Program-made: the position numbers and the translations under genes
Shown here: positions 1,350 through 4,875 of the stretch, in pieces
Position numbering within the stretch: position 1 is the stretch's first letter
Layout: each line of letters starts with the position of its first letter
Notes under the pieces: model-generated
Databases searched by the model: none
What the model was told of the DNA's origin: nothing
The model's input: the letters and a program-made list of their open reading frames with translations, nothing else
Origin: Chloroflexota bacterium
GTDB taxonomy: Bacteria > Chloroflexota > Dormibacteria > CF-121
Assembly (NCBI GenBank): GCA_005889535.1
Contig: VBHC01000139.1
Coordinates: forward strand, 1 to 38,061
Length of the DNA stretch: 38,061 nt
Direction: 5' to 3'

Positions 1350-1901
1350 CTAGAGCAGAGGCTGGCGGTTCAACGTGCTGCTCAGGCGAATCGTGACCGG
1401 GTGCCGAAGCGATTGCGCGGCGTGGCAGGCACGTTCCGCATGCGAGACCAGCTTTCTCACCGCATCGCTCGGCGCACTGCTGACGAGGGCGAGTTCGATG
1501 CTGACCTCTTCGAAGTGAGCCGGGGCATCATCGACGTCATACTTTTCGGTATTCCGGAAAGTCGCCCGTACGTCGGCGGTGGCATCCTCGACGGGAACCT
1601 CGTAGAGCGGCGCGAACCGCGCCACCTGGGTCAGCAGTCAAAAGGCGGTGCCCATCATGACGTACTGGAGGGGTGACGGCCCTTTCTCGGTGCCGCCACG
1701 AGCCAACGGTTCATCGGACTCGACGACGAACTTTCCCATGTGGCCCTCGAGATGAACATCGTCCAGAATCCTGGCTACCGCCCGCGTCGTGGTCCGCCGT
1801 TGGTCGGGTGGCGTGGCACTCATCTCCCGACGCATGCGAACGATCTCGTCCATCTGCTTGCGTAGGTTTACCCGACTCCGAGCCGGCTTTGAATCACTCA
1901 T
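1350..1901 (-). CDS. OsmC-family peroxiredoxin-like protein, candidate selenoprotein (in-frame TGA)
   Basis: Read through one in-frame TGA (1638-1640), this gives a complete OsmC-fold protein of about 183 residues. The N-terminal part (VHLEGHMGKFVVESDEP, then GPSPLQYVMMGTAF) and the C-terminal part (LLTQVARF to the conserved RACHAAQSLRHPV helix) stay in the same frame. The TGA, codon 88, falls where the family has its first catalytic Cys; the second Cys (about residue 159) is intact. A GC hairpin lies 14 nt past the TGA, matching bacterial SECIS geometry. OsmC-family members reduce organic hydroperoxides using two thiols, and OsmC-like selenoproteins have been reported from marine metagenomes. 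The start is taken as ATG 1901; GTG 1904 or TTG 1949 are alternatives. The other reading is a nonsense mutation from a TGC/TGT Cys codon. The selenocysteine insertion genes are not in this window. Confidence 0.7.
1609..1623 (-). promoter_or_regulatory. Candidate bacterial SECIS hairpin
   Basis: On the minus strand a 6-bp perfect stem, GGCGCG/CGCGCC, closes a GTT loop. The loop starts 21 nt after the TGA at 1638-1640. Bacterial SECIS elements lie within the coding region just after the UGA, with the apical loop roughly 16-37 nt downstream and a G in the first two loop positions; both conditions hold. GC-rich DNA forms such hairpins by chance, so this supports selenocysteine without proving it. 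Confidence 0.5.
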
Positions 1902-3147: not shown

Positions 3148-3203
3148 TGGCGGAGGGAGAGGGATTCGAACCCCCGAAGGCTTGCACCTTAGTGGTTTTC
3201 AAG
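3148..3203 (-). repeat. Partial tRNA-Ser copy, distal attachment site
   Basis: It is identical over 56 bp to the 3' part of the complete tRNA-Ser at 4788-4875: anticodon loop from CTTGAAAA, 3' anticodon strand, variable arm, T arm, acceptor strand, discriminator G and CCA. The acceptor 5' strand and D arm are absent, so it cannot fold as a tRNA. Identity starts exactly at the CCA end and stops in the anticodon stem-loop, a common crossover point for tRNA-targeting integrases. Confidence 0.85.
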
Positions 3204-3230
3204 GCCACTTTCAACCCGTCCGTCACCGTT

Positions 3231-3254
3231 CGCGGACGTTCGCCAACGTCCGCG
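3231..3254. repeat. Perfect 10-bp inverted repeat inside the left att end
   Basis: CGCGGACGTT and AACGTCCGCG flank a CGCC loop. A weaker copy, ACGTT-CGCC-AACGT, lies at 3287-3300. The shared unit ACGTTCGCCAACGT is repeated 50-60 bp apart, 30-100 bp inside the attachment site. It could be a recombination-factor binding site or a transcription stop; no T-tract follows it. Confidence 0.5.
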
Positions 3255-3318
3255 CCGTATTTCAGGCTGGCCCGTTTCGTCCGCCGACGTTCGCCAACGT
3301 TCGCCATAGTTCGCCGAG

Positions 3319-3340
3319 GTTGCCGTCACAGTTGCCGTCA
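3319..3340 (+). repeat. 22-bp end repeat, left copy
   Basis: A tandem pair of GTTGCCGTCA units separated by two bases, matching 4695-4716 in the same orientation with one mismatch (A/G). It lies about 115 bp inside the left 56-bp repeat. Arm-type integrase sites take this form, but the minus strand also reads LTATVTAT, so a shared coding remnant is possible. Confidence 0.6.
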
Positions 3341-4270: not shown

Positions 4271-4694
4271 CTCACCCCTCCTGGAGATCCCTTCTGATAG
4301 CGACGCTGCTACCGTAGTCCACTGTCAGGCCAAAGGCAAGCTCGGCCTGTACGGAGCGTAAAACCTGGAAGGGTGGGGAGGAGGGCCGGGGTCGGGTATC
4401 TACCTCCCCCCTTGCGGGGAAATTTCCCTTTCGTTGGCGCCTCCGCCTGCCCCTGCCGGACGCTTGTTCGGCAAGACGCAGGTTAAGGGGCCCCCGCCGA
4501 GAGACGGAGTTTTGCCACCCTACAGGCCGTTCGTCGCGCATGCTCAGCGTTTCTTGATCGAGGCCAAAAAACCTCTCTGAGTGTGAAGGCCCTCCGCTGT
4601 CGCCGACTCATCGGCAGCACGCCGCGACCTGCCGAGCGGCGGGACGATATCAAGTCGCAGGCTTTGATCAGGCAGAGGACACCTGTATCGCGCG
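4271..4694. other. Gene-free stretch with a 12-bp palindrome
   Basis: No reading frame here looks coding. It carries the upstream region of the secreted-protein gene and a perfect 12-bp palindrome, GGGAAATTTCCC, at 4417-4428, about 150 bp upstream of that gene's start. The palindrome could be an operator. Nothing else is recognised. Confidence 0.5.
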
Positions 4695-4716
4695 GTTGCC
4701 GTCACGGTTGCCGTCA
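4695..4716 (+). repeat. 22-bp end repeat, right copy
   Basis: Same sequence and orientation as 3319-3340 apart from one base, about 70 bp inside the tRNA-Ser CCA end. The two copies therefore sit near opposite ends of the islet, as integrase arm sites would. Confidence 0.6.
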
Positions 4717-4787: not shown

Positions 4788-4843
4788 TGGCGGAGGGAGA
4801 GGGATTCGAACCCCCGAAGGCTTGCACCTTAGTGGTTTTCAAG
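4788..4843 (-). repeat. Attachment-site repeat within tRNA-Ser
   Basis: The 56-bp segment shared exactly with 3148-3203. After it the two loci diverge within the anticodon stem (G at 3204, A at 4844), consistent with the crossover lying inside the repeat. Confidence 0.85.
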
Positions 4844-4875
4844 ACCACCGCCATCGACCACTCGGCCATCCCTCC
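4788..4875 (-). tRNA. tRNA-Ser(TGA)
   Basis: An 88-nt serine tRNA with the acceptor stem GGAGGGA/TCCCTCC, discriminator G and encoded CCA. It has a D arm GCCGAGTGGTCGATGGC, anticodon loop with TGA, the long variable arm typical of tRNA-Ser (TAAGGTGCAAGCCTTCGG) and T arm GGGTTCGAATCCC. It decodes UCN codons. Its 3' 56 nt are duplicated at 3148-3203, marking it as an integration target. serS lies about 750 bp upstream on the same strand. Confidence 0.95.

Follow-up and report, generated by a model that had tools for sequence, protein, structure and literature searches.

An in-frame UGA in an OsmC-family gene of a Chloroflexota genome is best read as selenocysteine

Does an in-frame TGA at the catalytic site of a bacterial OsmC-family gene end the protein, or does it encode selenocysteine (Sec)? 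The question is raised by a gene on the minus strand (1350..1901) of the window, the 38,061-nt stretch of Chloroflexota DNA analysed here, which ORF calling with translation table 11 breaks into two ORFs (1638-1949 and 1350-1625), the fate that a sequence-only reading had described as usual for such genes. Between the predicted ATG start (1901-1899) and the TAG stop (1352-1350), the TGA at 1640-1638 is the sole in-frame stop, and reading through it yields a protein of 183 residues with Sec as residue 88. The read-through protein matches positions 1-99 of the 100 in the Pfam OsmC profile (E=1.5e-14), and alignment to the OsmC-like protein 3cje places the TGA opposite the first catalytic Cys and C159, encoded by TGC (1425..1427, minus strand) and an invariant column in alignment A1, opposite the second. 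What the sequence-only reading had proposed for this frame — a single TGA at the first catalytic Cys, homology in one frame on both sides of it, and a retained second Cys — was borne out in each part. An AF2 model of the protein has the OsmC fold (pLDDT 93.6) and matches OsmC-like structures (2opl, TM 0.74), so the fold is found together with the two catalytic Cys/Sec positions of the Ohr/OsmC proteins.

Sec insertion generally competes with termination, and to that extent the UGA might be a regulated stop that yields a truncated N-terminal protein and is read through to a minor extent or depending on selenium. However, the truncated product would be without both catalytic positions, and the pre-TGA part alone gives no match to the Pfam OsmC profile. 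The post-TGA part matches the profile alone (E 2.5e-7) and is conserved in protein, with invariant residues, which makes a regulated stop very unlikely.

To which family does the full-length protein belong? It scores 149 bits against the NCBIfam model NF041052, 'OsmC-related (seleno)protein' (curated cut-off 95), and its relatives, including those from other phyla, also lie above the cut-off at 109-153 bits. Residues 88-91, ULLT, correspond to the UxxT motif of an OsmC-like selenoprotein that a 2005 study reported from the Sargasso Sea (PMC1088965) and that reviews of 2022 and 2026 list (PMC9312934, PMC13188914). The NF041052 score and the UxxT match therefore make the gene a member of a known selenoprotein family: judged by its sequence, it is an OsmC-related selenoprotein gene, of a family already known from marine bacteria. 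The earlier remark that marine metagenomes contain such proteins agrees with the 2005 description, and its addition that they are rarely annotated is partly wrong, since NCBI models the family. With the Sargasso Sea protein and NF041052, the window protein shares Sec at the first catalytic position, the UxxT motif and a bacterial SECIS-type hairpin after the UGA; it differs in coming from soil-type Chloroflexota and relatives, not from marine sequences, and in having about 37 residues ahead of its NF041052-matching part. It shares the fold and both catalytic Cys positions with the Ohr/OsmC/YhfA thiol peroxidases (PF02566), but has Sec for the first Cys, and its peroxidase role is putative.

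We then asked how widely the TGA itself is conserved. The first collection, 84,980 species genomes, was scanned and gave 32 related loci, 29 of which cover the TGA site; TGA stands at exactly the window codon, in the same layout, in 27 of these 29, the exceptions being L039, which has TGC, and L055, a weak match that is poorly aligned at the site. The related loci come from Chloroflexi, Ktedonobacteria, Dormibacterota, Actinomycetes, Acidimicrobiaceae and Bacillota MAGs, and protein identity of the TGA-bearing loci to the window gene is as low as about 40%. In a second collection, which comprises 400 genomes from the window's phylum and overlaps the first in part, 49 genomes gave matches. Among the loci checked, TGA occupies the window codon in 25, counting the window's own, and Cys replaces it in L063, L084 and L085, the latter two being more distant. 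L039 and L063, both with TGC at this codon and both at 50% identity, probably derive from one genome, because their SelA scores are equal; since that Cys-bearing genome still has SelA, the exchange between Sec and Cys is not simply trait loss. Such Cys/Sec exchange, expected of a bacterial selenoprotein, is what the sequence-only reading had suggested looking for among OsmC homologues.

Downstream of the TGA, on the same minus strand (1609..1623), lies a bacterial SECIS-like hairpin, GGCGCG-GUU-CGCGCC, with a stem of 6 bp and a GUU loop. It begins 14 nt past the TGA, so that its first base is nucleotide 15 after the UGA, and its loop opens with a G, as noted from the sequence at the outset. 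This conserved loop G lies 21 nt after the UGA; a short distance to the UGA and a conserved loop G are features of a SECIS-type hairpin. Pairing is present in 98.8% of cells in alignment A2, and in one large homologue group, where the protein changes from ARFAP to AKFSP, the RNA becomes GGCGAA-GUU-UUCGCC, two pairs changing on both sides. With more distant relatives added (alignment A3), double-sided compensatory changes are seen at 6/6 stem pairs, and 93.3% of cells are paired versus 76.2% on shuffling. Double-change cells number 23 versus 4.7 expected on shuffling, and the stem covariation score reaches 0.415, whereas shuffling gives 0.131 and no slid register exceeds 0.168; relatedness is corrected by the slid-register control, not by the shuffle control, and both agree on covariation. 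The stem codons for Ala94, Arg95 and Ala97 show zero synonymous variation where present (mean codon homozygosity elsewhere, 0.53), and the stem is broken in the Cys homologue L039. Folding energy, compared with shuffles over four stretches around the hairpin, was no better than that of the shuffles (z 0.23 to -0.76); in this GC-rich DNA, with energy unexceptional, support for the hairpin therefore comes from covariation, not from energy. A gathering-level Rfam scan of the window gave tRNA-Ser as its sole match.

These observations bear directly on whether the gene is a pseudogene whose TGA arose by ordinary nonsense mutation or by sequencing error. Lesions in this gene in two congeners speak for decay, as does the character of the assembly, a MAG-like draft of 2.77 Mb, 81% complete and in 221 contigs. 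Decay is contradicted by dozens of independent assemblies, from several phyla, that have TGA at this codon and an open frame before and after it, and by the covarying hairpin downstream; these leave a pseudogene with next to no probability. That a chance nonsense mutation was unlikely had been argued from the sequence, with random stops elsewhere in close homologues named as the contrary sign; the TGA is instead conserved at one codon.

Can this organism insert Sec? Its genome encodes a tRNA-Sec (58.2 bits) with anticodon TCA (UCA), selA (448 bits) and selB (357 bits), the latter two adjacent on one contig, as well as selD genes (L017, L018, L019) at G000:C161:292-1221 and C213:10354-11222, in both of which TGA occupies the active site (HGAG-TGA-ACK); the C213 selD may be frameshifted, because its match falls in two pieces in different frames. 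All the genes that the sequence-only reading had listed for checking, selA, selB, selD and tRNA-Sec, are therefore present, as expected for a bacterial selenoprotein. SelA occurs in 27/28 genomes with TGA-bearing matches versus 321/400 overall in the window's phylum, and in 20/22 genomes behind the loci of the first collection; since Sec machinery is common in the phylum (80% of genomes), this co-occurrence is weak evidence.

The examination of this genome for selenoproteins covered the OsmC genes and selD. Six genes came up in a Pfam OsmC search, and three of these, including the window gene, carry a TGA. One of these (G000:C216:444-908; L090:444-911, L120; relatives L121-L149) has its TGA at the first catalytic position, in the motif GULTGT, and so do 28/30 checked loci of its subfamily, L144 having TGC (Cys) and L141 TGG (Trp). 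Another, an OsmC/Ohr-type gene (G000:C180:35069-35497; L091:1381-1812, L092; relatives L093-L119), has its TGA at the second catalytic Cys; this holds for 24/28 loci of its subfamily, with TGC/TGT in four, and the first Cys is TGC or TGT in every locus covering that position. Its hairpin, GGUCGC-N-GU-N-GCGACC, also starts 14 nt past the TGA, with 100% of cells paired and 17 double-change cells versus 6.0 expected on shuffling, the changes being mostly synonymous and lying inside a nearly invariant Val-Ala-Val-Ala-Thr. The modelled protein has the OsmC/Ohr fold (pLDDT 94.3, best TM 0.83), scores 37.5 bits against NF041052, below the cut-off of 95, and shares about 21% identity with the window protein.

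The sequence evidence for this second-position subfamily is strong. That it is new is judged from a literature search of limited reach, with many journals outside it: neither NCBIfam nor the literature searched yielded a description of second-position Sec in OsmC/Ohr proteins. We consider it moderately likely that, within one fold, this genome places Sec at different catalytic positions — at the first Cys in G000:C216 and the window gene, at the second in G000:C180 — with Sec on either partner of the redox pair, and that the second-position subfamily would constitute an undescribed selenoprotein group.

The TGG of L141, in the subfamily of L090, would suit a genetic-code reassignment in which TGA stands for another amino acid, for example Trp, but this is scarcely credible given that the exchange partner in the window-gene family is Cys (L039, L063), that the window's other genes are normal under table 11, that the three OsmC genes have one TGA each, always at a catalytic position, and that the genome has the full Sec machinery.

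Selenocysteine insertion at UGA 1638..1640 is thus the best reading, because the TGA is conserved, the hairpin covaries and the Sec machinery is present in the genome; on these sequence-level grounds we regard it as very nearly certain. SelB bound to the hairpin would bring Sec-tRNA-Sec(UCA) to the UGA, and the product would be a full-length, dimeric thiol/selenol enzyme. For Ohr/OsmC enzymes, PMC8945050 describes thiol peroxidase activity with lipoyl systems as the reductant, and it counts YhfA-type members as biochemically uncharacterised. From that account of the Ohr/OsmC enzymes we infer a catalytic cycle in which Sec88 would attack an electrophile such as an organic (hydro)peroxide to give a selenenic acid; resolution with C159 would form a selenenylsulfide, and a cellular dithiol, probably of the lipoyl type as in Ohr/OsmC, would reduce this again. 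Homology thus points to a putative peroxidase activity of the window protein.

Several further features of the gene's surroundings and of its damaged copies were recorded. In one congener the copy of the window gene (L083:1349-1671) has an internal deletion removing the Sec region, and in another (L072:623-1140) there is a frameshift after the Sec region, which is also found in L030; these lesions may be MAG assembly errors, or may reflect dispensability and gene decay. The neighbours of osmC in the window, a phosphoribosyltransferase and a RibD_C protein, are conserved beside it no further than in the closest relative, L030, and therefore provide no operon argument. Elsewhere in the window, a tRNA-Ser(UGA) gene lies on the minus strand (4875-4788), and a 61-nt copy of its 3' part is found 1640 nt away (3148-3208 versus 4788-4848, 98% identical). 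This duplication resembles the attachment-site duplications that flank an inserted segment, here of about 1.6 kb; no integrase for such a segment was found among the window's listed ORFs. Short GC-rich repeats, of the GTTCGCCAACGTTCGC type and CGCGGTTGCCGTCACGGTTGCCGTCA, occur at 3217-3340 and 4691-4716, near both ends of the segment.

Collectively, our results confirm as one a gene that standard ORF calling had broken in two, and extend OsmC-type selenoproteins to Chloroflexota, Dormibacterota, Actinomycetes and Bacillota MAGs, supported by clear evidence at the RNA level. Three OsmC genes with a catalytic TGA in one genome offer a natural comparison for asking why selenium is placed on the attacking versus the resolving residue.
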